A stretch of 54,017 bases of DNA, taken from the NCBI GenBank assembly GCA_013176395.1, contig JABMLP010000050.1:1-54017 (forward strand), written 5' to 3'. A program made the translations under genes and the position numbers. Numbering within the stretch: position 1 is the stretch's first letter; every line of letters begins with the position of its first letter. Of this stretch, positions 9,328 to 52,482 are shown piece by piece. The stretch is from Venturia oleaginea (taxonomy: Eukaryota > Ascomycota > Dothideomycetes > Venturiales > Venturiaceae). The notes under the pieces were generated by a model, which had not been told where the DNA came from, made no database searches, and saw only the letters and a list, made by a program, of their open reading frames with translations.

Positions 9328-9339
9328 GGAGGGGGGTAA

Positions 9340-11588: not shown

Positions 11589-12906
11589 CATGTCCGTTAC
11601 CACGCCCTCACCTGGACTCGCAATGTTTGGTCCTCACGATGCTTGGCATATTGGATCCTGGCGTTGTAAAAATCCTGGACCCTGGATTTACAACAACAAT
11701 GGCCAACTCGGAATCTGGACAATACCGGACCCGGAACAGAGAATTGGGAGCATCAGGACCGGAGGGTGTCTTATACTGACCACAGTATAGATGACTCGGG
11801 TAGTGAACGGGGGGGCATAGTTCGACGGCGCCGGTCCATGGACGGGGCGCGGTCTGGAAAGTGACGAAAGGCCTTTTTATCCCAGAGAGTTGGGTTTTTG
11901 CAATTGTAGTAGATAGAGATTGTGGGCACACGGCACATACGCTTTTATATACCACGTAAAATCCGATTATTATTATTATTAACGTATTCCACCACCGAGC
12001 CGGCTACTTTTCCTTGGCACGACCAGCTCATGTTACAACTCTTCAATTTTATCGCTATCAACAATAGATTCCAAGTCTGTCGTGCTACTATCTGATTCGG
12101 AGGATATCTCGATATCCTTTTTACACGTTCGCGCATTGTGCCCAGTCGCGCCGCAGTTCCCACAGCGCCTTTGAGTTGGTTGGGCTGTTTCTTGATCACC
12201 ACTACTAGGAGTATTCTTTGATCTCTGAGGCGCAACAGACGCCACAGCAGCTACCCGCGCTGCTGCAGTCCCATACTCTATAGTACCACCTTGCTAGATC
12301 CGCTTCCTTTTACGCGATTTTCGCTTCGTCATTACTGCCAATTGCTCTTCAAGCTCGTGGTTTCGTGCAATAAGTAGAGCGTTCTGGTGTAGCATTAATT
12401 CAGCGCCTTTAGCAAGCTGTGAAAAGCCTGCCTGCGCAATAACTGGTGACCGAGTAAAAGACTCACTTACGAGCTTGGATTGAAATCCAAATTCTTGAGT
12501 ATTGCTTGGAGTCATCGACTGCCACGGCGTCTCCTGTGGTGGGGGTGCTGGTGGGGTACGTAGCCGTACTTCAAGGCGATCCAAAACTACCTGCTCGTTA
12601 ATAGGGACTAGCCCTACTGCCTCAAAGACCTTTCGACAATTCTCTTCCGTGAATACGTCGAAAAACGCGTCTTTGAAGGCAGGGAGAAAGCCTTCCTTAT
12701 TGATATGGTAGACGCATCGGCGTGCCAAGTCCCGGACGCGTTGGGAGTACTTGCGCTTCAATGGCGGGAAACAGACCACGTCAAGAGGCTGGAGTATATG
12801 AGACGATTGCGTGGCATATAGAGGGTTAGGATCTTGTTTTCGAGGCAGTAGTCCTTGAAATCCTGGTTGAGATGGCTCTCATAGCCGTCCAAAATGAGTA
12901 GCCTAT

Positions 12907-14144
12907 CCCTTTGGAGGCGGGGGTTGGGCACTTACTTTTTACCACAATATACCTCGTACTTGCACCACAACCCCGCCGTCAATTAAGCTCAAATAATGCT
13001 ATAACTTTATAGGCTTGCTAAGAAAGGTACAATAATGCTCTAATTAATTAACTACATCGATAGCATCAGGGTGGTTGCTCCAACAATCCCCATTCTTGCA
13101 AAGTGATACTTTGCACACGTCACACCCATATAAAGTACGTGGTGTACGTACTCTCCTTCCTTTGAATGTAGTGTCTGGTATTGTACGAATACTCTGGGCA
13201 CTTAATTCAATAGATACACGCCTCGGTTTTCGTGGTACAACCTCCCTACCAGCTTCTTGACAAGCCTTACAATACCCCCCTTTTCCTGGAAGTCGAAGAT
13301 GCCTATGTTCTTGTATATCTACTGCCTGCTCACGGAGGACTGTACGTGTAGGAGGGTAAGGCCGTGGGTTCGTAGAGGACGAGGAGGAGCGTCCAAGAAG
13401 GCCGTCAGTTAGGTCTGCAAGGAAGCGACGGTGCGGAGAGCGTTAAATCTGGCCTGGCTCACCGTAGATCGATTGTTTGTAGCAATTGCAGGCAACGGTA
13501 TCAATCAGGAAGTGCCAGAGAGGCTTCCAAGTCTAGTGGTGACGTCGCTGGCTCGTATAGTAGGCTCTAAGTTGATCTGCAATGTCAACGCCGTTCATGT
13601 AGTGGTTGTATTGATCGATAAATACTCCAGCATGCACCTCTCTCTGCCTCCTGATGTAGGCCAAAGGTTAGGGTGACTCCGATACACGCGTATATCTCCT
13701 CCCTTGTACACGGAATCCACCTCTTCTTGTGGCCCTTCAGATCCTCCTCTTGCGATGGATTCAGCTCAGCATTTCGGTTTGTATACGTGGTAATCTCTTC
13801 GACGACGGCCTCAGGTAGAAAGAGGTCAAATAGCTGCAAAGGATCTGCCCTATCGACGCTGGGAGGAAGGTTTGAGTGGCGAGAACCTTGGGAGCGGCTG
13901 GGGCTTTGGGATAGGCTACTTTGGGCGATGCACCTTGGGAGCAGGTGGAACAAGATCAATATCATTCGAGAACTTAGCAGGCATGCCTGCAAGCAAGTGG
14001 TTGAGATGAAATTTGTGTGTTTATTGATTCACTACATAACTTGCCACATTGGTGTTGCAGTTGCCAAGGCAAGGCGTTCTGAGATATTCTACGTACGTGC
14101 TGTAGTATTCAGAATTAAAAGTTAGTGCTCCCGCCTCCAAAGGG
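12907..14144 (-). mobile_element. piggyBac-like element, internally deleted, nested in Fot1-like copy 1
   Basis: Comparison with the uninterrupted Fot1-like copies at 19058 and 45366 defines the insert exactly. Its ends are inverted repeats: CCCTTTGGAGGCGGG at 12907 and CCCGCCTCCAAAGGG ending 14144, with further similarity inward (GCACTTACTTTT versus AAAAGTTAGTGC). The flanks share AT (or TA if one more base is placed in the TIR). No TTAA duplication, the piggyBac hallmark, is visible. The internal gene nevertheless encodes piggyBac family motifs. Confidence 0.8.
13044..13992 (-). pseudogene. piggyBac-type transposase (DDE_Tnp_1_7) with the catalytic middle deleted
   Basis: The N-terminal block LFLPEAVVEEITTYTNRNA and RWIPCTREEIYACIGVTL is typical of the piggyBac amino region. 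It then jumps to DQYNHYMNGVDIADQLRAYY, the conserved block following the catalytic core, and ends with a cysteine-rich tail (CDVCKVSLCKNGDCW) before a stop at 13044. The catalytic aspartates between the two blocks are missing, and stops interrupt the distal half (after SQRRHH and after YGEPGQI). The copy therefore cannot be autonomous. Confidence 0.8.
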
Positions 14145-15036
14145 ATACCCCCCACCTGCCGCGCCTTTGTATACGCGTCAAAATGCTTCAACCACCCAAG
14201 ACCAAGCGCGTTTTTTGTCCAGCCGTTCTCAGAGACCGAGAGCTTCCAATTCCGTGGTATATCTGCCTCCTCATACCACGCAGAGATGTGAACGCGTTCT
14301 TTATAGATAATAAATGGCGGGGTCGCATACCCAGCTGCGCAGAAGCTCTGAATAACCGTAACCCATTCGCGATCGCCCGGCTGGATGAGTTCAGGCCTTG
14401 CACGTCTTTCAGAGGCTGTAACGACCTTCATTGACCCAATAACGCCCATCTGGAAGCCAATCTCGTCAAAGTTGTGCGTATCCTCGTCGTGGACGCCGTA
14501 CTTGGCTTTAGTATCTGCAACTAGCTTGAACCACGCGCCAATTACTTCTGGATCTTCCTGTAGTATCCTCTGCCTATCCTTTGCTCGATTGAAGGCTATT
14601 TTGAGCTCATCTGAGCGCGTTACGAAACTCTCAGTCCAGTTTTTGCCTAATGGCTCTCCACCGCGTATACCCAGTAGTCTATCCGCCATATCTGCCACCT
14701 CATACAGCCGTGGTGCGAATCCTCGCGAATCGAGAGCGAGGATATATCGAATAATCGTTTGCTCTTCTATCGTAGTGAGCTTATGAGAGTTTGGGCGAGT
14801 TTGAGATCGAGAGGTGATTCCGCGGAGCTGATCAGAGAGCCTTTGGTGTTTAGCGTTAAAGACTGTAGCAGCGCGCCGTAGGCTTTGAAATTGGCCAGAG
14901 GTATAAGCCTGAAGAGCGAGATCATTTCTACATCCTTCTTGAACGGCTATCGCATTGCGTTGTTGAGACATTACGTGTTAAAGAGGATAAGGGCTGTGCC
15001 AAGGAAAAGTGGCCGGCTCGGTGGTGGAATACGTTA

Positions 15037-15370
15037 TATCTATATTATAACTCTAGTAAGCCACGCATTCCCCCCGTTTGGGGGAAAACGAGACGGGTTA
15101 TTATAGATTCTATAACCCGCCCCAAACCATCTCCCCCCGATCCGTTAACGGGGCGGGTTTAGAACCCCAAAACCCGCCCCAATCCGTCCCGTTGGGGACC
15201 CTACTCTTTATATCTCATAAAGAACCTCCTACCAAAAGTCCCCAGAGCAATCCAGCCCTACCAATCCCTCTATTACCCTTCCCAAAATCCTCGCCATATC
15301 CTCATCCTCCAATTCACCCTTCCCAAAATCCTCGCCATAAACTCTATCCTCCACGCCCATCACATCGAAA
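15037..15370. other. GC-rich intergenic with repeated AACCCGCCCC motifs
   Basis: AACCCGCCCC occurs at 15114-15123 and 15171-15180, and its reverse complement GGGGCGGGTT at 15150-15159. GGGTTATTATAG/ATTCTATAACCC forms a short hairpin near 15096-15118. It may be a worn terminal-inverted-repeat element. No gene is seen. Confidence 0.35.
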
Positions 15371-19055: not shown

Positions 19056-19057
19056 TA

Positions 19058-20906
19058 ACGTATTCCACCATCAAGCGGGTCAACCCATCGAGCGGGTCAA
19101 AAAGGCTTGGCACGACCAACTTATGTTACGACTCTTCAATTTAATCGCTATCAACAATAGATTCTAAGTCCGTCGTGCTGCTATCTGATTCAGAAGATAT
19201 CTTGATATCTTTTTTACAAGTTCGCGCATTATGCCCAGCTGCGCCGCAGTTCCCACAGCGCCGTTGAATTGGTCGGGCTGTTTCTTGACCACCACTACCA
19301 CGAGCCTTCTTTGATCCCTGAGGCGCTATAGACGCCTCTGCAGCTACCTGCGCTGCTGCAGTCCCATACTCAATAGTACCACCTTGCTGGATCCACTTCC
19401 TTTTGCGCGATTTTCGGTTCGTTGTCACTGCTAATTGCTCTTCAAGCTCGCGGTTACGCGCAACAAGCAGAGCGTTTTGGTGTAGCATCAATTCAGCGTC
19501 CTTAACAAGCTGGGAAAAGCCTGCCTGCGCAGTAACTGGTGACCGAGTAAAAGACTCGCTTACGAGCTTGGATTGGGATCCAAATTCATAAGTATTACTT
19601 GGAGTCTTGGACTGCCACGGCGTTTCTGGGAGATGGGTTTCTGGCGGGGTTCGTAGCCGTACTTCAAGGCGATCCAACACCACCTGCACGTCGATAGGGA
19701 CTAGCCCTACTGCCTCAAAAGCCTTTTGACAGTTCTCTTTCATAAACACGTCGAAAAACGCGTCTTTGAAGGCAGGGAGAAAGCCTTCCTTGTTGATATG
19801 GTACACGCGTCGGCGTGCCAAGTCCCGGACGCGTTGGGAGTACTGGCGCTTCAACGGCGAGAAGCAGACCACGTCAAGGGGCTGGAGTATATGCGACGAG
19901 TGCGATGGCATGCAGAGGGTTATAATCTTGTTTTCGAGACAGTAGTCCTTGAAATCCTGGCTGAGATGGCTCTCATGGCCGTCCAAAATAAGCAGCCTGT
20001 ATACCCCCACCTGCCGCGTCTTTGTATACGCGTTAAAGTGCTTCAACCACTCAAGACCAAGCGCATTATTTGTCCAGCCGTTCTCAGAGACCGAGAGCTT
20101 CCAATTCCGTGGTATATCTGCCTCCTCATACCACGCAGAGATATGAACGCGTCCTTTGTAGATAATGAATGGCGGGGTCGCATACCCGGCGGCGCAGATG
20201 CTCTGGATAACTGTAACCCACTCGCGATCGCCTGGCTGGATTAAATTAGGCCGTGTACGTCTTTCAGAAGCTGTGACGACCTTCATTGTCCCAATAACGC
20301 CCATCTGGAAGCCAATCTCGTCAAAGTTGTGCGTATCCTCGTCGTGGATACCGTACTTTGCCTTGGTGTCTGTAACGAGCTTGAACCACGCGCCAATAAT
20401 CTCTGGATCTTCCTGTAGTATCCTCTGCCTATCCTTAGCTCGATTGAAGGCCATCTTGAGCTCATCTGAGCTCGTTATGAACCTCTCAACCCAGTTTTTC
20501 CCTACTGGCTCTCCACCGCGTACACCCAGTAGTTTATCCGCCATATCTGCTACCTCACACAGCCGGGGCGCGAATCCTCGCGAATCGAGGTCGAGGATGT
20601 ATTGGAAAATTGTCTGCTCTTCAGTCGTAGTGAGCTTGTGTCGGGCGTTGCGAGTATCTAGGCGATACGTAATTCCGTTATATCGCCTAGTTAATGTTGA
20701 AGGAGGTATATCAAACGCCTCAGCAGCGCGCCGGAGGCTTCGGAATTGGTGGGTATTGTAGGCAGAAAGGGCAAGCTGGATTCTGCCTTCTCTGTTAGAT
20801 GATTGCGCGTTTTGTTGTTGAGACATACTGTGTTGATAAGGGAGCAGCTGGTCTTGGCATAAACTGACCCGCTCGATGGGTTGACCCACTCGATGGTGGA
20901 ATACGT
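19058..20906 (-). mobile_element. Fot1/pogo-like DNA transposon, copy 2, apparently complete
   Basis: 1849 bp flanked by TA (19056-19057 and 20907-20908). TIRs start ACGTATTCCACCATC, and the right end reads GATGGTGGAATACGT. Inside each TIR a 16-bp box occurs twice in tandem (cores CGAGCGGGTCA and CGAGTGGGTCA); the same box is found at both ends but not in the other copies. One uninterrupted transposase frame fills the element, so this is the only copy here that could still supply transposase. Confidence 0.92.
19141..20826 (-). CDS. Fot1/pogo-like transposase with C-terminal CCHC knuckle, intact
   Basis: 561 aa from MSQQQNAQ; an upstream in-frame ATG at 20889 lies inside the TIR and is less likely. 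Domains in order: psq-type HTH (about 12-50, SLRRAAEAFDIPPSTLTRRY); CENP-B/Tc5 HTH (about 60-120, HKLTTTEEQTIFQYILDLD ... GKNWVERF); DDE_1 nuclease with NFDEIGFQMG, LLILDGHESHLS and SSHILQPLDVVCFSPLK carrying the three acidic residues; then a coiled segment (LHQNALLVARNRELEEQL), a basic patch (RKSRKRK) likely for nuclear entry, and a knuckle CGNCGAAGHNARTC. It would cut and paste the element at TA sites. The zinc knuckle at the C-terminus is uncommon for a DNA transposase. Confidence 0.93.
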   Translation of the reverse strand: MSQQQNAQSSNREGRIQLALSAYNTHQFRSLRRAAEAFDIPPSTLTRRYNGITYRLDTRNARHKLTTTEEQTIFQYILDLDSRGFAPRLCEVADMADKLLGVRGGEPVGKNWVERFITSSDELKMAFNRAKDRQRILQEDPEIIGAWFKLVTDTKAKYGIHDEDTHNFDEIGFQMGVIGTMKVVTASERRTRPNLIQPGDREWVTVIQSICAAGYATPPFIIYKGRVHISAWYEEADIPRNWKLSVSENGWTNNALGLEWLKHFNAYTKTRQVGVYRLLILDGHESHLSQDFKDYCLENKIITLCMPSHSSHILQPLDVVCFSPLKRQYSQRVRDLARRRVYHINKEGFLPAFKDAFFDVFMKENCQKAFEAVGLVPIDVQVVLDRLEVRLRTPPETHLPETPWQSKTPSNTYEFGSQSKLVSESFTRSPVTAQAGFSQLVKDAELMLHQNALLVARNRELEEQLAVTTNRKSRKRKWIQQGGTIEYGTAAAQVAAEASIAPQGSKKARGSGGQETARPIQRRCGNCGAAGHNARTCKKDIKISSESDSSTTDLESIVDSD

Positions 20907-21280
20907 TAGTATCTACCTACCTTGTTGAATACTGTCTTTTTAAGAGTTATGTTGATTGCTGAAGTTGGTGTAGGGGGATCTTATTTACTGACTGACGATT
21001 GTTTGAAAGTGACATGTTTGAGGGAGTTTGAGGGAGGGATGGGGATGGGATGATGGACTGTATGTTTGGCAATTCGTCGGGAAGTGAACGGAATTCATCG
21101 TCCTCTGCCGGGGTCTCGCGAGCTTCTTGAATGGATTCGTATGGACGAAGGCGAGGAGTTAATGTCCTCGTTGTACCATTTCACTTCGAAAATCTTCAAC
21201 AATACCCCGAAAAATTGTTCTTCTCAGAAGACTGAGATGCAACGTCTTTATTCACAAACTCATCATCTTCAATCAAAAGC

Positions 21281-23736
21281 TCAAGACCTTCCCCCAACCA
21301 ACCCCCTCGCTCGACTCCTCTCCCCCCTCTCCAAAACCCAAACAACACCGCCCTCTTCACCCTCTAGAGCCTTCATCTCCTCCCACTCTTCATCCTCCAT
21401 CCCAGCAACCATAACAATCTGCACACATCTCCCAAAAGTATCACGCAATTCATACCTCGCCTCCCCACAAGCAGCAGCAACAATACCAGCGACATCCCTT
21501 TCCAACCTCGTCGTACCAATCTCGCTCACCCTCCCTGTCAAAGCCCAGATGCGCTTCTCGAGCGCCGAAGCAATCTGCGGTAACGTCGTTGATAACAGTT
21601 TATCCCAAGCTTTGGAGGTCATGATGCGTTTCAGGGGACGCGTGAGGGAATTCCAAAGCGAGCTGAATCTCTGCGTCACCAATTCCGAAGTCTCGTCGTC
21701 TATTTCGAGGTCAGCCTTGTCAGTGCTGGATGTGTTGTAATCCATGTCTCTGAAGGCGTCGGCGAGGATGGGGCGGATGCGGGGTTTGAGGACTTGGTGG
21801 TATGTTACTTCGATACCATCGTTCATGAGCTGGGTGCATTTCGAGGAGAACGTAGTTTCCATGTTGTGCAGAGTGGTCACAACGAAGGTGGCATCGTTTG
21901 AGAATGGGAAGCTTTCTCCCAATAATTCCGAACTTGCAACATGGCCACCATTCGTGGTTACGTCAGGTGCTAGCTGACCAAGGTGCGACGCGATGATTCG
22001 CTTGATATAATCTGTCGCAATATCGAGATTGTTGATCAAGACGAGAAACTGAATGATTTTGTCCTCGGGTGGCAGAGCACCCTGGATAGCAGCTTTGGGA
22101 TAACTTTCGTCCCGCATCTTGCGTTGGATCATACCTATGAAATCAGAGCCGAGAACGCGGCCGATGGTAGGAACAACACCTGCCACGACTGAGCGCTGAG
22201 ATGTTGCTAGTGACCTTTGTAGCACTTGATTGACAATATACATAACATCGTCTACTGCGGAGGTAATGAATGGCGGATTTGCTTCCAATGGTTTTTTAAT
22301 GTTGAGGGTGAGATCTGAGGGAGATTCGTCCAGTTGGAAAGCTTTCTCCACAGATCGACGGAAAAAGAATGTCGTCATGGCATTGAACGGTTCTGTGAGT
22401 AGTTTGGACGCTTTTTTGTTTAGATTGCTGGCCAAGACATAATCCGGGATTGTGAGCGTGCCGTCGTGGTGATTGCCATTCGTGGGGACAGAGAGGGTTT
22501 CAGAATGCTGGACAGAGTAAGTATAACTTCACCCATGCGCAGCAATAGCACACGTACATGAGTTTGCGAGGCGAGGAATCGAGTGTACAGAGACCATCGT
22601 CCGAGCATGACAGCAGATTCGCCCAACAGGCTCTCTACCTCCTTCATGTCCACACCTTCGTCTTCACTATTGCGTCCGACAGGTGTGCCATGTCGTGCTG
22701 GTGATTCTGATCTCATGATTCCGCCTGCCGACTTTTGCTGTGGTAAAAAGCTCTGCACGAGGAATGAAAAGGCATAAGACTTGATGTCAGTGAGCCGGCG
22801 ATCAACCAGTCGTTCTTCACTCCAGGTATCAAGAATGATGCCACCTTGGACATCTGCTTCCATTTGCAAGCGCTCGATTACCTTGACCATACGCCCAGCG
22901 CCATAGTGCTGTTCAACCAGTGGTTGATGGCCTTCAACGATTTGAGCAATATGCTCAAACAGTTTGGTGAGGCAATTGGCATAAAAGTAGCCATCTTTGC
23001 GCCCACCAGCCGAAGAGTTGAGGTTGGCTCTAGCCCTCGCAGCGACACCTTGACATACATAGCGGCCATATGCGTCAAGTCCTACATCTGATTTACCGAT
23101 CAGGGGAAACAATTTGAAAAATCGAGTGACTCGCGCGCCATCGGCTTCTTTGGTAGCTTTCTCAAACTCTCTCAAGAACAGACCGCACAAAGACTCTGCC
23201 GCATTGGCCAACGTCACCCTAGGAGTATCTGGAACCTCAGCAGTAGGCACAATTTCTTCTGCAAAGCTGCCATCAATGACGTCGTCTGGTATTTTCGAAG
23301 CCCGATGTATATATCCAGCCGCAGTTTCCCAGTCTTGAGGCGCGCCCATGGAGCCGTGTACTCCCAGCACGCATGCCTTCAACTCAGCCACCTGCTCGAC
23401 CACTTCCAATGTTGACTTCACGTTCTCTTGCTCTTGATCCAATCGCTTCACGGCGCTTGATATTCGGTGGGCGGTGGTTGCGGCATCGGAGAGCATGCCA
23501 TTGCTGATTGCGCGTGTGCTCACGACCTGGGTTCCTAGGTGTGCTCGTAGGAGGTCCAAACGGCCAAGCTCTCTCGATAGATGGTTTTGAGACGCAATGA
23601 GAGCATCGAGTTGGGCAGTGACTGTAGCTTCATGACGTCCTAGCTTAGCAAGGGTGGCCTCAATCTCGTCGATGGAGGTTGCGGTATAGATGTTTCTGGG
23701 GGGGGTATGGCTGTCGCCATTGGCGAGGGAATCCAT
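21281..23736 (-). CDS. COG4: Conserved oligomeric Golgi complex subunit 4
   Basis: Two exons, 22558-23736 and 21281-22507, separated by a 50-bp intron (GTACGT ... TGTCCAG) in phase 0; the product is 801 aa. The N-terminal coiled coil (EATLAKLGRHEATVTAQLDAL, SAVKRLDQEQENVKST) is typical of COG4. The Cog4 core follows (ARVTRFFKLFPLIG, GLDAYGRYVCQGVAARAR, GGIILDTWSEERLVDRRLTD), and after the intron IPDYVLASNLNKKASKLLTE and TALVINNLD-type segments (QFLVLINNLDIATDYIKRII). COG4 belongs to lobe A of the tethering complex for retrograde vesicle traffic within the Golgi. Length and motif order match fungal orthologues. Confidence 0.92.
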
Positions 23737-27180: not shown

Positions 27181-27439
27181 TGTAGTAATTTTGCCCCATT
27201 CTTTGCTGGAATAATTTGGACGGCTTTTGTTGGATTATACATGAGGCACTTTTGGAAGCAAAGAAAAGGGAGGGGCAGAGGGGTTTTGTGTGTTGTGTGC
27301 GTAATTAGATACCCCACAAGATTGTCGTCTGTAATGATTGCAAACCTGGGCGATCTTTGTTGTAATGAGTAAACAAACGAGCGAGAGGTATTCATTGGAG
27401 ACGTTTTGGGAGGAGAACTTAGTCGATGGATAAATATTA

Positions 27440-27507
27440 ACGTGTTCCACCACCGAGCTGGTCAAAAAGGCTTGGCACGACCAACTCATATTACGACTCT
27501 TCTAACA
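27440..27507 (-). mobile_element. Fot1-like element, isolated left-end fragment (copy 3)
   Basis: After TA at 27438-27439, ACGTGTTCCACCACCGAGC, a box CCACCGAGCTGGTCAAA, then CTTGGCACGACC and ACGACTCTTCT match the 3' end of the other copies. Similarity stops abruptly near 27507, and no partner end is found before the copia element. It is a truncated relic with its own box variant. Confidence 0.75.
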
Positions 27508-28561: not shown

Positions 28562-28566
28562 GCAGA

Positions 28567-28734
28567 TGTTGGAAGGAGTATCCTCATGCTATTGCCTCCA
28601 CCTGCGCCAGCGTGGCTACTCTCTGTCACTGGAGTTTGTTTACTGCCCAATTGGGCTTAGTGTATTACTATATAGCTGAGATCCTCCGGATCTCACCCTC
28701 AATACACTTGTTACTCAACTTTCATACTTCAACA
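28567..28734 (+). repeat. 5' LTR of copia element
   Basis: 168 bp, same sequence as 33632-33799 by direct reading. Contains an inverted GAGATCCTCCGGATCTC near its 3' third. Confidence 0.95.
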
Positions 28735-28752
28735 GGTTATGAGCCCGGCATC
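28735..28752 (+). other. Primer-binding site matching the anticodon arm of initiator tRNA-Met
   Basis: Directly after the LTR, GGTTATGAGCCCGGCATC is the complement of a sequence containing GGGCTCATAACC, the anticodon stem-loop of eukaryotic initiator tRNA-Met (loop CTCATAA). Drosophila copia primes from a half tRNA-iMet cut in this loop. Similar priming is inferred here. Confidence 0.7.
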
Positions 28753-28932
28753 ACGCCGCGCGCTCCTCCGATATACAGCACCTTACTGAGCATCACTGCT
28801 TCACATTTGTTGTTCATCATCGCTGCTGTTGTTGCTGCCGACGCTCCGCTACCCGGCGTACAGCACACCGTACCAGCACAGCACGGCACCCACCTTTACC
28901 TCTGAAGCAGACTTCAGACCACCTCTGTCATC

Positions 28933-31900
28933 ATGTCATCTTCCTTCAGCTTCAAGCTTGACCCCAACTCGCTGCCCAAGCTTTCTGCCCGCGGCGATAA
29001 CTACACAGAATGGCGCTCCGCGTGGACTGTCGCACTCAGGTACGCTGGCCTCTGGCCGATCGTGTCTGGCAAGAAGACAAAGCCCGCCGCCGTCGCTGGG
29101 ACTGGCGCAGAAGCTCGCGAGGAGCTCATCGACAAGTGGGACGCCGACGACAACAAGGCCATGGTCATGCTGCTCTCGTCGGTACACAACGACCTCACGA
29201 TGTCCATCGCGTCGTGCGACACGTCACCCGAGGCCTGGAAACACCTCGGCAGCCGATTCGACCGCGATACCGGCAACGCGTCCATCACCCTCTTCCGGTC
29301 GCTCACAAACCTCCGCTACGCGGATGGAGACGACCTCAGACTACACCTGGACGAGTTCCATCAGCGATGGACTCGCATGGCAAAGCGATGCGCTGGCTCT
29401 TCACAGAGCGTCGCAAAAGCCATGAAGGCAATGTTTGAATCGGATGAGGTCAAGGGCTCATTCTTCCTGGCTACCCTACCAGATACTATGGACCACGTCA
29501 TCGACAACCTCAGCTCTCGTGACGTTACCAAGTTTGTCGACATCGAACCCAAGATCCTCGACATCTCCGACAAGCACTCCCTCGACGCTGACTCCTCTAC
29601 CGCGTACGCTGCGAAACAATCCGCCGCGCGCGGCGCCAAACAGAACCAAGGTGGCGCACGCGGAACGCGTCCGGCTACTAATACTACCGAATGCTCCTGG
29701 TGCCGCAAGCACAACATGACGTTCATTGGGCACGCCTACACGAACTGTAACGAGCTCAAGAAACACAAGGAGCAACAGCAGCGCAAAGGCAACGGCGCGC
29801 CAAAGGAGACGAAGAATGGCGCAAAACGTCAAAAGGCGAACAACGCGAACGCCGCTGAATCATCAGACGATGAGGACGACGAGGACAGCGCAACTGAGGT
29901 GGTGAGCTTCATAGCACATTACCGCGCCACCAACGCCACTGCCGGCGCAACCATTGACCTGACTGGATCACCACCGCAGTCGACGCGGACCACGATGATC
30001 AACGTAAACGGCAAGCAATCACGCGAAAATATAAGTGCTCACGCCGCAATACGTCGGCCCTCAGCAATCGATCCTCCCACGGTATGGCTTCTTGACACTG
30101 GTGCCTCGCGGCACATGACTGGCTGCGCCGATGATTTCGTGTCCTTGTCACCCAAGCAAGGAACGATCACGGTGGCCGGCGGTATCAAGTTACCCATCAA
30201 TGGTGTTGGACTCGTTCGATTACGCTGCAGAATGCCTGACAGATCCACAAAGATCGTCGAACTGACCAACGTCCTCTACAGTAGCGAGCTCTATGGTACA
30301 CGGCTCTTCTCCTGGAGTTATGTCCGTCACCATCACAACCTCGAATTGCACGGCAAAGCAAACGACATCTTCCTCACGCGCAACGGCGCCACGGTACTGT
30401 GGGCACGGCACGCGGACGGCGTTGTACAAATCCAAACTAAAACGAAACCCACAGCGCACGTTGCCTCGACCGAATCCCACGCGCCAACTAACCGAGACCT
30501 GACGCGCAAATCGTCACTACACAAAACCGAGACCGCACCTGCTGCAACCGTCAGTGCACCATCTTGGCCAACACTGGCGCAGAAGACTGCATGCTTCTCA
30601 TCGTATACGGAGTTTCATCACTCAGTCGGTCATCTTCACGTCCCAAACCCTGCAAGGATATACAATGATGGGCACCTGGTACCGGCGAAACCTCATGACT
30701 TCCACTGCGACATGTGCTCCCTCAGCAAGTCCAAGCGACAGCGGCCTGCGCCATCCCCACCAGTACTGGCGCGCACCATCAAGCCGCTCGAAGTCATACA
30801 CTCAGACTTGTCAGGGAAGTTTCCTCGCCCAAGCCTTGGAGGCGCACGTTACTTCATATCCTTCATCTGCCAAGCAACTCGCTACTCCTGGATCAAGCTT
30901 CTTAAGCTGAAGTCTGATGGCCCCCAGGCGATCCGCGAATTCATCGCCTTCGCAAATACTCAATACAACGCTCAGATGAGTACTGCGAACATCCACATAC
31001 ACAGCTCTACGGTAAAACGCTTCAAGTCTGACAACGGCGGCGAATACCGCGCCGCTGCCCAGGACCTTCGGCGCATGGGCATACAACATGACATGGTCCC
31101 ACCTTACCATCATGAGCTCAATGGCGTCGCAGAACGGTGGAATCAGTCCATCATTCAGATCGCTCGATCAATGATCCCTACTGACAGTCAGCTGTTCCTT
31201 TGGGGTGAGGCTGTGCAGACAGCCAATTTCCTCAAGAACATATCCCCTCACGCTGCTGACAAACTGGGTCGTACGCCGCATGAATTACTCATTGGCGCGA
31301 AACCATCCATCAAGCATCTGCACCCATTCGGCTCCAAAATCTTCGCTCACATACCTGTAGAAGCTCGCAAGCCTGGCTCCAAGCTCTTGCATAGAGCGGA
31401 GGAAGGCATCTTCGTTGGGTATGGGCGCAACACCAAAACTGCGAGGGTCTACATCCCATCGCGTCATGTCATCATGGAAACTCGCAACCTGCGCTTTGAG
31501 CCTTTCTCAAGGTCTCAGACTGCGCCGTATTTCCAACCTGTGGCGGAGAATGAGATACCAGCTGCTGAACCAGTCTCTACATCTCCAAGACGGCCTCAAA
31601 ACAAAGATCGTCGGCCGTCGGGGGACACTTTTGCCACACCTCCTACATCACCAACGTGGTCCACGACGACAGCGTACACCCCATCCCGGCTTGAAGCTGG
31701 GGTACCTTTGGACCACTCGTACGATCAGCCTGCGCCAACGCCTGTGCAGCCCAGCGCAGAAAATGGACAACACACGCGCTCCGCTCCACCCACCTCTGCA
31801 CCCGGCGCTGGAGCAAGAGGAACTCGAAGGGAGACGCGACCGTCACAGGACCTGTCTGATCCAGTCGAGCTCCGACGCTCCAAACGAGTTGCTAAGCCTT

Positions 31901-33582
31901 CACGCAAAGCCGCAGACAACGCTGAAGCGTCATTGGCTTTGGAAGACATGCTTGCGCCAGATGATGAGAACATGGCGCACGCTGTGGCTTGCGTCACCAA
32001 GGCAGACATCGACCACGAGATACCTCGCACGTTCAATGAAGCTGTCAACGCCACTAACTCCCCTTTGTGGGTTACACCGATCAACAAAGAAATCCAAGCA
32101 CATCGTGACAATGGCACATGGGTGATGGAACACAATCCTCCGCCAAACCTCAAGCTCGTTGGCACACGCTGGGTCTTTGACATCAAGCGCGACGAGCATG
32201 GAAAGGTCGTCAAGCGCAAAGCCCGCCTGGTGGCACAAGGCTTCTCACAACGTCCTGGGGTGGATTTTGACGACACATATTCCCCAGTGGTGCGCTACGA
32301 CAGTCTGCGTCTCATCATCGCTATCGCTTCGTGGCGACAATGGATCATGCACCAAGTGGACTTTGACGCCGCCTACCTCAATGGACGACTGCAACACGCC
32401 ATATACGCCAAAGTCCCGCCAGGAGTACCCTCTCACGGCGCAACAGTGATCCGTATTGTTCGCGCTTTGTATGGGCTCAAGCAATCAGGCCGCGAATGGT
32501 ATGCTCTACTGTCTCAATGGCTTGTTGGTCAGGGCTTCACACAGGCCAGCTTTGATCCATGCGTCTTCATCTCAGATGATCTCATTCTTGGAATCTACGT
32601 AGATGACGTCCTGATGGCCGGCACGCCCAAGGCAATCAGCGCCATGCTCGATGCCACCCGCGCAAGGTTCAAATTCAGAGACATGGGTCGACCACGTCTG
32701 CTCCTCGGTCTTGAAATTGACCATCACGCGGACCACGTCAAGCTGCACCAACGTACTTACATCGCAGCGATATTGCGGCGCTACGGCATGGATGATTGTA
32801 ATGGGCGCCACACACCGCTTGACCCTAACTCGTTCCCACCAAGGTCAACCGACTCAGTGGACCTTGATCGCCAGAAACTGTATCAATCCATCATCGGCTC
32901 GATCAACTTCCTTGCCATCGTCAGTCGCCCAGACCTGTCCTACACGGTCAGCATGCTGGGTTCATACAACTCCAACCCATCAGACCTGCATCTGAAGATG
33001 GCTTACCAGACTCTACGTTACATTCAAGCCACCCGAGCTGTTGAACTTGACGTACGATCTCCTGCGCCGTCTGATCGCTCTGCAGCGCGGACCGCGTCCA
33101 TTCCTACGCTCGTCATGTTCTCAGATGCGTCTTTCGGGTCTGACCCAGACAACTCCAAGTCCTTCTCTGGTTACCTCATGAAGGTCGGTGGATCGACAGT
33201 CTCATGGTCTTCAAAGCGTCAGTCATGCGTGGCAAGGAGCACTTGTGAAGCCGAGTACATGGCATCATCCCACGCCGCCAGCCACCTCGTGTGGTCGCGC
33301 CAGGCCATCAAGGAGCTTATGGGTCACGCCAAGTACCCCAACTGTTGGCTCATGGTTGACAACGAGCCCGCCCTGTCGCTCATCAAGGACCACAGGATCA
33401 GCAATCGTTCTAAACATATCAACGTTCACTACCACTTCGTCCGGGAGCGATTCGTCCTGGGTGACTACGCCATCGAGCATGTCTGCTCCGCTGACAACCT
33501 CGCCGACATTGGTACTAAATCACTACCACGACCCCTCCTGGATAACCTCCGAGGCCGTATTTGTGCAACTACTGCGCCATGA
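28933..33582 (+). CDS. copia Gag-Pol polyprotein
   Basis: 1549 aa in one frame. Gag: UBN2-like region (YTEWRSAWTVALRYAGLWP, about 20-220), then an unusual knuckle with a stretched loop (CSWC, then H and C, CX2CX9HX4C, about residue 255). Protease: VWLLDTGASRHMTG (about 385). GAG-pre-integrase zinc motif: HHSVGHLHVP ... CDMCSLSK (about 565-600). Integrase core: HSDLSGKFP, KSDNGGEYR and HHELNGVAERWNQ (DDE). RVT_2: RWVFDIKRDEHGKV, VDFDAAYLNG, YVDDVLMAG (about 1080-1240). RNase H: FSDASFGSDPDNS, STCEAEYMA, MVDNEPALSLIKD (about 1395-1500). It would make the particle, copy the RNA to DNA and insert it. No stops or frame breaks are seen. Confidence 0.96.
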   Translation: MSSSFSFKLDPNSLPKLSARGDNYTEWRSAWTVALRYAGLWPIVSGKKTKPAAVAGTGAEAREELIDKWDADDNKAMVMLLSSVHNDLTMSIASCDTSPEAWKHLGSRFDRDTGNASITLFRSLTNLRYADGDDLRLHLDEFHQRWTRMAKRCAGSSQSVAKAMKAMFESDEVKGSFFLATLPDTMDHVIDNLSSRDVTKFVDIEPKILDISDKHSLDADSSTAYAAKQSAARGAKQNQGGARGTRPATNTTECSWCRKHNMTFIGHAYTNCNELKKHKEQQQRKGNGAPKETKNGAKRQKANNANAAESSDDEDDEDSATEVVSFIAHYRATNATAGATIDLTGSPPQSTRTTMINVNGKQSRENISAHAAIRRPSAIDPPTVWLLDTGASRHMTGCADDFVSLSPKQGTITVAGGIKLPINGVGLVRLRCRMPDRSTKIVELTNVLYSSELYGTRLFSWSYVRHHHNLELHGKANDIFLTRNGATVLWARHADGVVQIQTKTKPTAHVASTESHAPTNRDLTRKSSLHKTETAPAATVSAPSWPTLAQKTACFSSYTEFHHSVGHLHVPNPARIYNDGHLVPAKPHDFHCDMCSLSKSKRQRPAPSPPVLARTIKPLEVIHSDLSGKFPRPSLGGARYFISFICQATRYSWIKLLKLKSDGPQAIREFIAFANTQYNAQMSTANIHIHSSTVKRFKSDNGGEYRAAAQDLRRMGIQHDMVPPYHHELNGVAERWNQSIIQIARSMIPTDSQLFLWGEAVQTANFLKNISPHAADKLGRTPHELLIGAKPSIKHLHPFGSKIFAHIPVEARKPGSKLLHRAEEGIFVGYGRNTKTARVYIPSRHVIMETRNLRFEPFSRSQTAPYFQPVAENEIPAAEPVSTSPRRPQNKDRRPSGDTFATPPTSPTWSTTTAYTPSRLEAGVPLDHSYDQPAPTPVQPSAENGQHTRSAPPTSAPGAGARGTRRETRPSQDLSDPVELRRSKRVAKPSRKAADNAEASLALEDMLAPDDENMAHAVACVTKADIDHEIPRTFNEAVNATNSPLWVTPINKEIQAHRDNGTWVMEHNPPPNLKLVGTRWVFDIKRDEHGKVVKRKARLVAQGFSQRPGVDFDDTYSPVVRYDSLRLIIAIASWRQWIMHQVDFDAAYLNGRLQHAIYAKVPPGVPSHGATVIRIVRALYGLKQSGREWYALLSQWLVGQGFTQASFDPCVFISDDLILGIYVDDVLMAGTPKAISAMLDATRARFKFRDMGRPRLLLGLEIDHHADHVKLHQRTYIAAILRRYGMDDCNGRHTPLDPNSFPPRSTDSVDLDRQKLYQSIIGSINFLAIVSRPDLSYTVSMLGSYNSNPSDLHLKMAYQTLRYIQATRAVELDVRSPAPSDRSAARTASIPTLVMFSDASFGSDPDNSKSFSGYLMKVGGSTVSWSSKRQSCVARSTCEAEYMASSHAASHLVWSRQAIKELMGHAKYPNCWLMVDNEPALSLIKDHRISNRSKHINVHYHFVRERFVLGDYAIEHVCSADNLADIGTKSLPRPLLDNLRGRICATTAP

Positions 33583-33631
33583 ATGGGGGGACTGGCACTG
33601 ATGGGAGGAACATCGTTCGGATTCGGGGGAC

Positions 33632-33799
33632 TGTTGGAAGGAGTATCCTCATGCTATTGCCTCCACCTGCGCCAGCGTGGCTACTCTCTGTCACTGGAGT
33701 TTGTTTACTGCCCAATTGGGCTTAGTGTATTACTATATAGCTGAGATCCTCCGGATCTCACCCTCAATACACTTGTTACTCAACTTTCATACTTCAACA
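33632..33799 (+). repeat. 3' LTR of copia element
   Basis: Partner of 28567-28734, followed by the duplicated target GCAGA, after which GCAGACTGGCAGACTGG continues the host sequence. Confidence 0.95.
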
Positions 33800-33804
33800 G
33801 CAGA

Positions 33805-38097: not shown

Positions 38098-38197
38098 TCC
38101 GTCCTCACTCGCGTGATTTGGTCGATTGCCGAACGGAGGCTCTTTGGTGGAAAAGGTGATCTCTCTTTGAAGAATGAACGTTTCATATATCAATACT

Positions 38198-41989: not shown

Positions 41990-41991
41990 TA

Positions 41992-42601
41992 ACGTATTCC
42001 ACCACCCGAACCGCCACACCACCCAACCCGCCAAAATATGCCAAGACTACCACTTCCCCCATTATCTGATTATGTCTCAACAACACAACTCGTTATTACT
42101 TGAACACGAAGGGAGACTTCAGCTTGCTGCGCAGGCAGGCTTTTCACAGCTTGTTAAAGGCGCTGAATTGATGCTGCACCAGAACGCCCTACTTGTTGCA
42201 CGAAACCACGAGCTTGAAGAGCAATTGGCAGTAATGACGAAGCGAAAATCGCGAAAAAGAAAGCGGATCCAGCAATGTGGTACTATGGAGTATGGGACTG
42301 CAGCAGCGCGGGTAGCTGCTGAGGCGTCTGTTGCGCCTCAGGGATCAAAGAATGCTCATAGTAGTAGTGGTTAAGAAACAGCCCGACCAACTCAAAGGCA
42401 CTGTGGGAACTGCGGCGCGACTGGGCACAATGCGCGAAGGTGTTAAAAGGATATTGAGATATCTTTCTGAATCAGATAGCAGTACGACAGACTTGGAATA
42501 TATTGTTGATAGCGAGAAAATTGAAGAGTCGTAAGATGAGTTGGTCGTGCCAAGAGATTTTGGCGGGTTGGGTGGTGTGGCGGTTTGGGTGGTGAATACG
42601 T
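41992..42601 (+). mobile_element. Fot1-like element, copy 4, short internally deleted form
   Basis: 610 bp flanked by TA (41990-41991 and 42602-42603). TIRs carry their own box pair (cores GAACCGCCACA / CCCAACCCGCCAAAA) at both ends. Inside, the first codons of the transposase are fused directly to its C-terminal third, so it is a MITE-like deletion derivative, orientated opposite to the other copies. Confidence 0.9.
42072..42534 (+). pseudogene. Fot1-like transposase remnant (N-terminus fused to C-terminus)
   Basis: MSQQHNSLLLEHEGRLQLA joins AQAGFSQLVKGAELMLHQNA. All HTH and catalytic domains are lost. The junction sits in GCGCAGGCAGGC, where both parents share several bases, suggesting microhomology deletion. 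The distal basic patch and a damaged knuckle region follow in another frame, ending TTDLEYIVDSEKIEES. Confidence 0.85.
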
Positions 42602-42712
42602 TAACATAATAATATTGACGGTGCGAATGCCATCTTTATTGTAGCCGTCCATCTCTCCCCTTCCCCTAGCCCTCAGTCGCCTCTCCGTCAATCCTCACAC
42701 ACCCCTCTGCCC

Positions 42713-42934: not shown

Positions 42935-44093
42935 GATGATGGTAGTTGGAAGGTAGTTTTGAAGAGTTTGTTTGTATACTTTTGTATATTTGATTGGAAG
43001 AGTTGGAATTTGGACGTCTGAAAATGCGAAAAGATGGGGAGAAACGATTTTTATAAGCTCTACAATCGGAATTTTTTTGAGTAGATTGTGTATATATAGT
43101 CGACATGGTTATTTGAGACAACGAGCGAGGCCCCGAAGTTTTACCAGCTACGACACGCAGGACATTTATATATATCCTGCGAGATTATCGAGGTTCTCGG
43201 TCCTTTTCCCTCCCCACCGCACAGCCGCTCCTTAATGTCCGGGGAAAAATCTCATGGGAAAAATCTCGTGTACAAAACTTGTCTATTCATCGAGTCTACT
43301 TTCCCTTCCCTTCCTACGTCCCTTACCTGGTCCGTGATTTTTTCAGTACATTCGTCGCGCGGTGCACAGGCACCCACCAAATCTATAGGAGTAATAGGTG
43401 GAGACAAAGTAAAAATCATCCTCCCATTGTCCTATGGTTTTGGTTGAGGACCTGAATTGCCGAAACACCCCTACACGCCGAAAACTAGGTATGGGGTAAC
43501 CCTCAGATCCTAAAAAGATAACCTCACTTCCTCTTCCCTTCCCCACCCCCTCACTCTCTGTCCGCTTCCCTCAATCCTCGCATCCCATCGCATCCCGGTT
43601 CGGGAGTTGGCGGATGGAAGGTGGATGGTATATTGATGGACGACATGCTAATTTGCGGACAGGCGATCCCTTAGAGTGTTTTCAGCGTGGTTATCTAGAC
43701 AATGATCAGGCCAACGAAGGCTCAGCAACTAGCCAACTACAACACGGATGATATTTATATCGTGCTTTCAGGGGCAACCAGGCCAACCACTTTTCAAGAG
43801 GACTTGTTTTCTGGGCGGCGAAGACAGCGGTTGACCGGAATCCGAAGGACCTACATGAGATCTTTACGTTTTACGTGCCCGTAATAGGATTCTGATTAAA
43901 GCTTGGGAATAGCACCATGGAATAGGAAGATTATGGATAAGAATCGACGTGTTTGATTGATAGTACGAGTCTGCTTGGTTGTATTGGCTACTCCGAAACG
44001 AAGTCATTTCGACTTGCATTTGTCCTCGTTGTCTCTGAAAGCGCAGTAGAGGGACCGACCCCTACCAATCTCGTATACAGGGCAAATTCTTTG
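42935..44093. other. Region between the secreted-protein gene and the minisatellite
   Basis: The first 250 bp is probably the promoter of paralogue 1 (TATATATAG near 43091). The rest holds no gene I can support. Confidence 0.4.
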
Positions 44094-44496
44094 CTCCCTC
44101 ACCTCCCTCACCTCCCTCACCTCCCTCACCTCCCTCACCTCCCTCACCTCCCTCACCTCCCTCACCTCCCTCACCTCCCTCACCTCCCTCACCTCCCTCA
44201 CCTCCCTCACCTCCCTCACCTCCCTCACCTCCCTCACCTCCCTCACCTCCCTCACCTCCCTCACCTCCCTCACCTCCCTCACCTCCCTCACCTCCCTCAC
44301 CTCCCTCACCTCCCTCACCTCCCTCACCTCCCTCACCTCCCTCACCTCCCTCACCTCCCTCACCTCCCTCACCTCCCTCTCCTCCCTCTCCTCCCTCCTC
44401 CCTCCCTCTCCTCCCTCTCCTCCCTCTCCTCCCTCTCCTCCCTCTCCTCCCTCTCCTCCCTCTCCTCCCTCTCCTCCCTCTCCTCCCTCTCCTCTC
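44094..44496. repeat. 9-bp minisatellite, CTCCCTCAC then CTCCCTCTC
   Basis: About 31 near-perfect copies of CTCCCTCAC (44094 to about 44374), followed by about 13 of the variant CTCCCTCTC with one shifted unit near 44395. It is open in several frames, which produces long artificial repeats of Leu-Pro-His or Gly-Glu-Gly. It ends 3 bases beyond the stop codon of paralogue 2. Confidence 0.97.
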
Positions 44497-44498
44497 CT

Positions 44499-44702
44499 TT
44501 ACTGAGGACCACAGCACCATTGTATCTTGATAGTTGTCTTCCCATTTTCACTTCCAACGTTAACAGGCGTCTGCGTGCATCTCTTGCCCGGTTGATCAGA
44601 GCAAGGAATTTGGCATGCAAGTGGTCCATCCCTGCATTGCTGCGCATTGGCGTTGAAGGTGAGGGCAAGGAGGGTAAAGGCGATGGAGTAGAGGAAGTAC
44701 AT
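44499..44702 (-). CDS. Small secreted cysteine-rich protein, paralogue 2
   Basis: 67 aa with signal peptide MYFLYSIAFTLLALTFNANA, then QQCRDGPLACQIPC, KRC and a terminal WCCGPQ. Six cysteines follow C-X6-C-X3-C-X7-C ... WCC, identical in spacing to paralogue 1 apart from the last loop. The minisatellite begins immediately after the stop and would be transcribed in the 3' untranslated region if the message is long enough. The frame is open further upstream, but the signal peptide fixes the start. Function is unknown; candidate effector or defence peptide by form only. Confidence 0.7.
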   Translation of the reverse strand: MYFLYSIAFTLLALTFNANAQQCRDGPLACQIPCSDQPGKRCTQTPVNVGSENGKTTIKIQWCCGPQ

Positions 44703-45363
44703 GATGATAGTAGTGGTTGGTTGTATATCCGATTGAAAGAATTGAGGATGGCTGGTTTGGACTTTTATACTGGTGGATCTGTGAGGGTGTACGGTGTTGT
44801 GGAGAAATCTGTAAAACATATGAGTAAGGTGTGTACTTATAGTAGACATGTAGTCGACATGTAAGTATACGATGGTTTGCTTCGAAGTTATCGAGAGCGA
44901 ACCACGAGTCGACATGTTGGTATACGATAGTGTGCTTTCAAGTTTAACCAGGACAAACCACAAGCCGACTTCACTTGTTTTCTGAGAGCCAAGATAGCTA
45001 ATGTTGAAAATCTTGCTGATCAATCGCTTCGTTGAACGTCGTTTAACTCTTAAGAATCCTATCCGTATCAACTGGTGTCTAATCCGCGGGCTCTGTCATG
45101 GCATTCAGGCTTGAAAGTGGGCCTCATCTGATTCCATAAATAGGGATTCATACACCAGCCAGCAATACTAAGTTTTATATGTACTAGAAGGTAGCCTGTG
45201 GTTAAACGTGACATACGTAGTAATGTGTCATCGGAGTCCGCGGATTAATCCCTATAGCCCTAAGACCGGACACCAGTTAATACGGTATTAGGTCTTTAAT
45301 CTATAGCCATCTTGGCTCTTAGAACAACACTCGATCGCATAAGTTACTGAAAATGTCCTGGCT
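44703..45363. other. Upstream region of paralogue 2
   Basis: Contains repeated GTCGACATGT at 44851 and 44910 with GTATACGATRGT following each, a short direct repeat of about 59-bp spacing. No gene supported. Confidence 0.4.
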
Positions 45364-45365
45364 TA

Positions 45366-47197
45366 ACGTACTCCACCACCCAACCGCTCAAACCATCCAA
45401 CCGCTCAAATTTCTTGGCACGACCATCTCATGTTACGACTCTTTAATTTTTTCGTTATCAACAATAGATTCTAAGTCCGTCGTGCTACTATCTGATTCAG
45501 AAGATATCTCGATATCTTTTTTACGAGTTCGCGCATTATGCCCAGTTACGCCGCAGTTCCCACAGCGCCGTTCAGTTGGTCGGGCTATTTCTTGATCACC
45601 GATACCACGAGCCTTCTTCGATCCCTGAGGCGCTACAGACGCCTCTGCAGCTACCTGCGCTGCTGCAGTCCCATACTCCATAGTACCACCTTGCTGAACC
45701 CGCTTCCTTTTGCGCGATTTTCGCTTCGTTATTACTGCCAATTGCTCTTCAAGCTCGTGGTTGCGCGCAACGAGTAGAGCGTTTTGGTGAAGCATCAATT
45801 CAGCGCCCTTGACAAGCTGGGAAAAGCCAGCCTGCGCAGTAACTGGTGACCGAGTAAAAGAGTCGCTTACGAGCTTGGATTGGGATCCAAATTCATGAGT
45901 ATTGCTTGGAGTCTTTGACTGCCACGGCGTTTCTGGGAGACGGGGTTCTGGCGAGGTACGTAGCCGTACTTCAAGGCGGTCCAATACCGCCTGCGCGTCG
46001 ATAGGGACTAGCCCTACTGCCTCAAAGGCCTTTTGACAATTCTCTTTTGTAAACACGTCGAAAAACGCGTCTTTGAAGGCAGGGAGAAAGCCTCCCTTGT
46101 TGATATGGTACACGCGTCGGCGTGCCAAGTCCCGGACGCGTTGGGAGTACTTGCGCTTCAACGGCGAGAAGCAGACCACGTCAAGGGCTGGAGTATATGC
46201 GACGAGTGCGATAGCATGCAGAGGGTTAGGATCTTATTTTCGAGGCAGTAGTCCTTAAAATTCTGGTTGAGATGGCTCTCATGGCCGTCCAAAATGAGTA
46301 GCCTGTACCCCCCCCCACCTGCCGCGCCTTTGTATGCGTGTCAAAATGCTTCAACCACTCAAGACCAAGCGCGTTATTTGTGCAGCCGTTCTCAGAGACT
46401 GAAAGCTTCCAATTGCGCGGTACATCTGCCTCCTCGTACCACGCAGAGATGTGAACGCGTCCTTTATAGATAATGAAGGATGGGGTTGCATACCCAGCGA
46501 CGCAGATACTCTGGATAACCGTAACCAATTCGCGATCGCCCGGCTGAATGAGTTCCGGCCTTGTACGTCTCTCGGAGGCTGTAACGACCTTCATTGACCC
46601 AATAACACCCATTTGGAAGCCAATCTCGTCAAAGTTGTGTGTATCCTCGTCGTGGACGCCGTACTTGGCTTTGGTATCTGCAACGAGCTTGAACCACGCG
46701 CCAATAATCTCTGGATCTTCCTGTAGTATCCTCTGCCTATCCTTGGCTCGATTGAAGGCCATCTTGAGCTCATCTGAGCGCGTAACGAACCTCTCAGCCC
46801 AGTTTTTGCCCACTGGCTCTCCACCGCGTATAGCTAGCAGTTTATCGGCCATATCTGCTACCTCACAAAGCCGGGGCGCCAATCCTCGCGAACCGAGGTC
46901 AAGGATGTATCGGGCAAGCGTTTGCTCTTCGGTAAGGGTAAGTTTCCGACCATTTGGTGGTGTTTCGAGGATAAATGGGACTCCTTTAACGCGCTCAGAG
47001 AGAATTCGCTGTTTAACGTCAAAGGCACGAGCGGCGGCCCGTTGGCTTCGGAATTGGCCGGCTTGGAGGGCTTGGAGTGCGAGCTGGATTCTCCCTTCGT
47101 GTTGGAGTAATAGTGCGTTTCGTTGTTCAGATATAATCACATAAGAGGAATGGTAGAAGTCTTGGCAGATTTTGAGCGGTTGGGTGGTGGAACACAT
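45366..47197 (-). mobile_element. Fot1-like element, copy 5
   Basis: 1832 bp flanked by TA (45364-45365 and 47198-47199). The outer TIR is worn (ACGTACTCC; right end GGAACACAT). The left end has two tandem boxes with core CCAACCGCTCAAA and the right end one (its complement TTTTGAGCGGTTGG), again private to this copy. Confidence 0.9.
45433..47134 (-). pseudogene. Fot1-like transposase, copy 5, frameshifted
   Basis: The body is very close to copy 2 (GKNWAERF, NFDEIGFQMGVIG, RKSRKRKR, knuckle CGNCGVTGHNARTR with the last Cys changed to Arg). The psq HTH recognition segment is different (FDVKQRILSERVKG). The usual start codon reads ATA (ISEQRNALL). A C-run expansion near 46310 (CCCCCCCCCC where copy 2 has TACCCCC) and a one-base loss in AAGGGCTGG near 46186 break the frame. 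Dead copy. Confidence 0.88.
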
Positions 47198-52470: not shown

Positions 52471-52482
52471 TTACCCCCCTCC

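Follow-up and report, generated by a model that had tools for sequence, protein, structure and literature searches.

Coupling of the psq DNA-binding segment to tip boxes around a mosaic catalytic body in Fot1-like transposons of Venturia oleaginea

The window analyzed here, a stretch of 54,017 nucleotides from Venturia oleaginea (contig JABMLP010000050.1; C46:1-54017 in our numbering), holds five Fot1-like pieces (copies 1-5), and the genome scanned along with it comprises 46.08 Mb in 61 contigs. The elements are Fot1/pogo-type cut-and-paste transposons whose lineage is defined by the psq-type helix-turn-helix (HTH) segment of the transposase (codons 1-72) together with a short box in the tips. 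The putative second HTH, the catalytic domain, the tail and the 3' untranslated region (UTR) are common to the lineages and mosaic. We found coupling between psq type and box type at both ends, whether the two ends of an element are read or psq is linked to the 3' box, as the earlier note on this DNA had proposed. Judging from sequence comparison, it is likely that each lineage keeps its matched pair of psq and box and that recombination homogenizes the catalytic body they share. The psq segment would bind the box, and the matched pair probably decides which enzyme moves which copies.

Reading boxes and psq segments together gave six end types, A-F. Type A pairs the box CCGAGCCGGCCA with the recognition helix KHQRLSDRLR, type B has TCGAGCGGGTCA with PPSTLTRRYN, and type D has CCGAGCTGGTCA with PPSTLTSRYN. 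Two boxes each mark type C (CCCGAACCGCCACA and CCCAACCCGCCAAAA, helix KHQNLSDRAR) and type F (CCCAACCCGTCAGAT and CCCAACCGGTCAAAA, outer tip TTCGATCA, helix KQQTLSDRVR), and type E has CCCAACCGCTCAAA with KQRILSERVK. End types beyond these six may exist. The psq segments fall into three classes, A, B/D and C/E/F. The psq module adjoins the 5' tip and the box is repeated in both tips; at either tip the box is about 13-17 bp long, and one to three boxes stand at each end, a number that varies even inside one end type. A strict 3'-end pattern had 266 matches in the genome (100 of the 266 places were listed) and its backward control had 0. Two further end patterns had 113 and 93 matches, the 113 counting tandem boxes twice in part and overlapping the strict-pattern set in type C.

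Among the 49 distinct elements read at both ends (50 rows, of which L001 is window copy 2), 45 had ends of a single type: 28 of type B, five each of A and D, four of E, two of F and one of C. The excess of B arises because the first search was made with copy 2. The other four elements had mismatched ends (L029 D/B, L061 D/F, L098 C/A and L102 F/E). In a second set, which overlaps the first, psq and the linked 3' box agreed in 86/89 cases among the matches listed (C/C 8, E/E 36, F/F 42), with type E called by at least 90% identity to copy 5 and 3' ends taken from exact-match listings; about 20 of the 42 F/F links are short deletion copies, perhaps of one lineage. The three disagreements were C/F (C56:1723834), E/C (C34:530659) and F/E, of which the F/E case is L102, already counted above. 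Together, the mismatched copies number six, two of them found by linkage and the others by reading both ends; each shows a different combination, met once among the copies examined. For the 26 B/D proteins of contigs 1-10, a link was obtained in 16, every one to a B end; 7 of 13 A ends were linked, all to A, and both B ends (2/2) to B. Only L061 of the four D ends there was linked, to F, the D ends being mostly unlinked because D tips do not match the patterns used. Since the linkage set overlaps the set of 49 and copies of a family are not independent, these counts give a strong association and not that many separate events.

Short copies occur in two types. In about 20 F-type deletion copies (L083, L084 and others) the 3' end lies just 259-313 bp past the psq segment, and the A-type copies L033, L034 and L036 are 338-372 bp long. 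From their sequence, both look like derivatives moved in trans.

Mosaic copies were found by following the sites that separate two types. L095 is F, then E at 20 consecutive sites (702-985), then F again, with an F box at its 3' end. Both the tips and the psq of L068 are of type A; between about 305 and 1227 its sites are mostly D-like, and A sites return towards the 3' end. In L097, 47 consecutive A-like sites (543-1771) lie between C ends. Hence L068, L095 and L097 each hold an interior of a foreign subfamily between matched tips. In L060, read on its 3' side, 17 B sites (978-1395) stand ahead of a C end, and L029 changes from D (to 558) to B (from 666 on). The L029 exchange is recent, since identity to each side is 98-100%. 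A class A psq on a B/D-like body was met in L068, L069, L070 and L072, on four contigs, and the recombinant or its precursor has therefore spread. An assembly or polishing artefact is an extremely improbable source of these patterns: high-copy repeats this similar are prone to mis-assembly, but the same recombinant on four contigs speaks against it, as do module classes that reappear in proteins of other assemblies. One further candidate, a supposed B/C chimera on contig C29, was rejected, as its listed 3' end faces away from the gene.

Within the window, the copies and their parts are as follows.
11980..15036, minus strand: copy 1, end type A; Fot1-like element, TA at each tip, interrupted by a nested insertion
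14756..14971, minus strand: psq module of copy 1, class A, codons 1-72
14996..15036, minus strand: 5' tip of copy 1, one A box; inverted pair I15
11980..12024, plus strand: 3' tip of copy 1, one A box and the inner sequence TTGGCACGACC
19056..20908, minus strand: copy 2, end type B; complete element of 1853 bp
19141..20826, minus strand: transposase of copy 2, 561 aa, HTH_psq and DDE_1
20611..20826, minus strand: psq module of copy 2, class B/D, codons 1-72
20865..20908, minus strand: 5' tip of copy 2, two B boxes; inverted pair I14
19056..19117, plus strand: 3' tip of copy 2, two B boxes and the inner sequence TTGGCACGACC
27438..27502, plus strand: copy 3, a lone 3' end with box type D
41990..42603, plus strand: copy 4, end type C; about 0.6 kb, with an internal deletion, each end with two unlike box units
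45364..47199, minus strand: copy 5, end type E; frame-shifted element of 1836 bp
46919..47134, minus strand: psq module of copy 5, class C/E/F, codons 1-72
45364..45424, plus strand: 3' tip of copy 5, two E boxes and the inner sequence TTGGCACGACC
47160..47199, minus strand: 5' tip of copy 5, one E box and the inner sequence TGCCAAGAC

The contrast on which the earlier note was built holds in these copies. Residues 36-62 of psq are identical at 8 of 27 positions in copies 1/2 and 5/2, and also in 1/5, and residues 73-270 are identical at 174, 175 and 173 of 198 positions (1/2, 5/2 and 1/5); the least-matching 27-residue window within residues 73-270 keeps 20-22 matches. Boxes and tips were read directly in the window, and the boxes differ copy by copy, again as had been seen. 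Other parts of that description needed correction. Copies 1, 2 and 5 had all been taken to encode transposases; copy 2 has the only open full frame among the window copies (561 aa), and copies 1 and 5, though whole in outline, are broken, copy 5 by a frame-shift and with ATA at the position of the start codon in its sister L100. The outer tip, thought constant, is ACGTACTCC at one copy 5 end, ACGTGTTCC at 27438 and TTCGATCA in another genomic family. The supposedly constant inner sequence is TTGGCACGACC at the 3' end only; at the 5' end, types B-F have TGCCAAGAC and type A has CCTTGGCACAGCC. Tandem boxes, reported for copies 2, 4 and 5, stand as described in copy 2; copy 5 has a pair at the 3' end and a single box at the 5' end, and in copy 4 the two units are unlike.

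Two side observations concern these copies. The insertion nested in copy 1 is about 1.24 kb (roughly 12907-14147), and six-frame reading shows no long open frame in it. The type A inner sequence is nearly identical at both tips, inverted (12010-12024 and 14992-15010; also L067 and L068), unlike types B-F, in which a TGCCAAG motif points the same way at either end.

The step between psq and body shows in silent sites as well as in the protein. Across the 5' UTR and codons 1-72, 60-base windows of DNA are 40-71% identical between classes; behind codon 72, type representatives are 87-96% identical to one another. Low values of type A past position 900 in the window scan come from truncated, badly aligned A copies and are superseded by the element alignment. 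Between-class synonymous divergence (pS) is 0.45-0.65 in codons 1-52, 0.58-0.92 in codons 53-72 and 0.10-0.33 in three parts of the body. Synonymous sites have diverged between classes as much as the amino acids, so fast amino-acid change alone does not explain the psq divergence. In 14 of 15 pairs from different classes (all but copies 1 and 2), psq exceeds the body at four-fold sites (p<0.05), with values of 0.38-0.75 against 0.08-0.25; these pairs are not mutually independent. Because of this excess, the three modules seem to have a far older common ancestor than the bodies. Inside classes the four-fold values in psq and body are 0/35 and 26/172 for B/D, 0.29 and 0.16 for E/F (p 0.064), 0.22 and 0.20 for E/C, and 0.17 and 0.13 for F/C. 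Within C/E/F, and for B versus D, ordinary divergence with co-change of helix and box may be the explanation.

Trees of the two parts conflict. DNA trees were built from 22 of 85 aligned element rows (21 for body 900-1790), chosen by end type and completeness with mismatched copies excluded; a companion test used the same rows plus the mismatched copies and one more A row. The psq tree of the 22 elements groups B/D and C/E/F with 100/100 support each and A with 93/95. Body 900-1790 rejects all three psq groups (A, p 0.007; C/E/F, p 2.6e-7; B/D, p 0.0095), and body 300-900 rejects group A (p 3.5e-5). The disagreement between psq and catalytic trees for which the earlier note proposed a test was seen, the body rejecting psq groups in four of six tests.

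Protein trees of 10 own and 22 foreign sequences extended this conflict to other genomes. The foreign proteins come from 43 of 535-600 aa among the 120 best of 2236 matches and were hand-picked after their identities were known, mostly for a clear class or high body identity, so that class sizes are no census. Own bodies form one clade (100/99) amid the foreign proteins. In the psq tree, own rows stand in three places among the foreign ones, and forcing them into one clade was rejected (p 2.3e-5). The psq classes were rejected as body clades (3.5e-6, 9.5e-80 and 8.4e-58), and in the psq tree neither the B list (p 0.26) nor the A list (p 0.09) was rejected as a clade. One group of ten foreign bodies (97/93), drawn from several sources, mixes psq classes: P0008 (A), P0001, P0004 and P0010 (B), P0005, P0006, P0007, P0009 and P0016 (C/E/F), and P0044; P0009 is from Parastagonospora nodorum. 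P0008 shares 83% of its psq residues with own A and 56% with own B; its body is 85-88% identical to every own type. P0002 matches B at 78% in psq and has a body at 83-87%, and seven foreign C/E/F proteins match the closest own type at 63-70% in psq and 81-88% in the body. The E-type psq segment alone, used as query, found two foreign proteins, 65 and 67% identical. By these identities, psq is slightly less conserved than the body in classes A and B and clearly less in C/E/F; some extra speed is real.

That selection changed psq and box in place within one lineage, with no exchange, is quite unlikely. Psq does exceed the body in variability among 53 proteins (1.89 bits for the recognition helix, residues 42-49, 0.99 for helix three of the candidate second HTH and 0.42 for the DDE part), and helix and box differ inside C/E/F and between B and D with no significant four-fold excess. 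However, pN (the non-synonymous counterpart of pS) is lower than pS in psq whenever two types are compared, between-class synonymous divergence is much greater in psq than in the body, the same psq classes reappear in foreign proteins, and body and psq trees conflict, with tracts visible. Between the three classes, change in place is already contradicted, and we rejected fast psq evolution as the sole cause there on pS, four-fold sites, tree conflicts and foreign recurrence. Of the rapid co-evolution that the earlier note had offered, what stays is some extra speed in psq, clearest in C/E/F; psq is no simple fast changer, its synonymous sites having diverged too.

Repeated capture, in which one body lineage took psq and tips from diverged families, is also unlikely. 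It predicts the same tree conflict, the step near codon 73 is sharp, and L097, with C ends and an A-like body, is compatible with either direction. Every type would require two separate captures, one per end, whereas body conversion needs one internal tract, and such tracts were observed (L095 and L068). The local module exchange named in the earlier note is kept as exchange, which tree conflict and tracts make real, but the homogenized part is probably mainly the catalytic body.

Several results weigh against matched pairs kept around a shared body. Members of one family do not count as independent, and for 61 of the 150 psq modules no 3' end is listed, which may hide mismatches with A, B and D ends (L098 is one). 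Copies 1 and 2 differ at four-fold sites by 0.35 in psq and 0.20 in the body (p 0.11), and pairs within a class show no significant excess of psq over body at such sites. Variability as high as that of the recognition helix is also found in the unstructured N-terminus (1.95 bits) and the linker (1.75 bits). The groups C/E/F (p 0.13) and B/D (p 0.33) are not rejected by body 300-900, the psq protein tree supports class A weakly (81/82), and it rejects the C/E/F list as a clade (p 0.03), the last because P0009 and P0016 nest inside and were omitted from the list. In addition, the sequence adjoining the 3' box is nearly as good a predictor of box type as psq, being right for 71-80 of 75-83 nearest neighbours (A versus C excepted); within families, common descent therefore accounts for much of the matching.

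Common descent with conversion from tip to tip only, in which single founders explain the matching ends and psq is uninvolved, is nevertheless very unlikely as the whole account. Local 3' sequence does follow box type inside families, type A tips are alike for about 15 bp past the box and those of other types are not, as expected of tip-to-tip conversion, and the 5' box is held to psq by physical linkage. But A and C have body and 3' sequence in common and differ at both ends. Their 3' sequence up to the box is 94.2% identical between types and 94.6 and 94.9% within them, with box and psq different, which favours psq over neighbourhood. The matched-end mosaics L068 and L095 retain their 3' box across a foreign body tract, and the six mismatched copies are all one-offs.

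Matched pairs around a shared body could be maintained as follows. Ectopic gene conversion, or template switching in post-excision gap repair, would transfer body tracts between lineages, and the body would thereby evolve in concert within the genome. Older psq modules would persist because the box at either end would have to be recognized by the psq helix. One crossover within the body would leave the two ends unlike, probably a poor substrate; with both breakpoints inside the body, the ends would stay matched and the recombinant could spread. The inner sequence, which is constant, would be read by the putative second HTH, likewise constant. A wider reading, offered tentatively, is that the pairs may be long-lived specificity types that predate the host lineage split, that unlike types may not cross-mobilize, and that the engine may be shared by recombination. 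If so, the transposon population would act as compatibility groups with one common catalytic gene.

Assignment to the Fot1/pogo type follows from several features. TA, which is the whole of the target-site duplication and common to nearly all copies, flanks both tips in at least 45 of 50 element rows, with CA, AA or TT at a few tips (L010, L019 and L064); tips begin with ACGT and lengths are about 1.8-2.3 kb, as in Fot1/pogo-type elements. Copy 2 scores 27.4 bits for HTH_psq (cut-off 20.4) and 98.7 bits for DDE_1 (cut-off 22) in Pfam, and copies 1 and 5 exceed the cut-off for DDE_1 only. The candidate second HTH, of CENP-B/Tc5 type, matched HTH_Tnp_Tc5 at 14-17 bits, under its cut-off of 22.2. 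In the predicted structure this region has helices at 67-82, 89-102 and 112-118, with PDB 1HLV, the CENP-B DNA-binding domain on the CENP-B box, as the best second-look match; we count it among the closest known systems. A sequence search of solved structures gave two weak matches only, apparently unrelated, and a single scan of viral contigs gave no match.

Among known systems, the specificity subunits of type I restriction-modification enzymes carry old recognition segments on a conserved, recombining frame, as here; they differ in that the DNA site lies outside the exchanged unit.

The Fot1/pogo-type families of Sclerotinia sclerotiorum are similar in size (1.8-2.3 kb), ACGT tips, TA target, HTH_psq plus DDE and the presence of many families per genome, and their authors state that each pair of ends and transposase confers some specificity (PMC4188875). 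In the part of that account available to us, tips are reported without direct repeats, unlike the tandem boxes here, and neither a mosaic common body nor psq/box coupling appears, both of which we found (PMC4188875). Galileo, of the P superfamily in Drosophila mojavensis, is likewise divided into subfamilies by tip sequence, has 12 chimeric copies with unlike tips, and combines tips of one subfamily with the interior of another (PMC3573991). Its tips also have tandem repeats, thought there to contain transposase binding sites, and exchange was proposed to generate new subfamilies (PMC3573991). Galileo differs in having no intact transposase, in that a transposase alignment of 12 copies did not reject the tip topology, and, in the text available, in that no DNA-binding segment is tied to tip type (PMC3573991). 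Hence, exchange as such is already known. For psq/tip coupling with a shared body, no report was found in the openly licensed PMC literature searched, as far as its text was available, including PMC4188875, PMC5915480, PMC7325037, PMC4168063 and PMC3573991. What appears new relative to the literature searched is a DNA-binding segment coupled to both boxes across a concertedly evolving body, with the same binding classes in other genomes.

How a cut-and-paste transposon alters its recognized ends without dying is an old puzzle, because the enzyme and two ends must change together. Hundreds of copies in one genome let engine, reader and address be traced separately, and in this genome mismatched one-offs coexist with recurring matched recombinants. 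Trees of the catalytic domain, a usual basis for classing, can unite copies that may not cross-mobilize.

The nearest named relatives of the transposase are from Pleosporales (Parastagonospora and Pyrenophora), among the best 120 of 2236 matches. For the COG4-like host gene at 22420-23736, the named matches among 120 listed are from Candelina submexicana (75%) and Zalaria obscura (73%), not Pleosporales. On such sequence relationships, a horizontal transfer of the transposase is possible.

TTAGGG repeats stand at 53842-54017, the right contig end; with a telomere there, the elements in the window are subtelomeric. Two segments of about 1.5 kb (7987-9515 and 52295-53821) are 98% alike and mutually inverted, and a further, partial copy lies at 3925-4099. 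Their reading frames look like fragments of a chromodomain-bearing long terminal repeat (LTR) retrotransposon. An LTR retrotransposon at 28567-33800 looks like a young insertion: its 169-bp LTRs are identical, its open frame spans 1549 aa, and CAGA flanks it on either side. At 44013-44560 a 9-bp unit is repeated in a long array, which translates as a Gly/Glu or Arg-rich frame.

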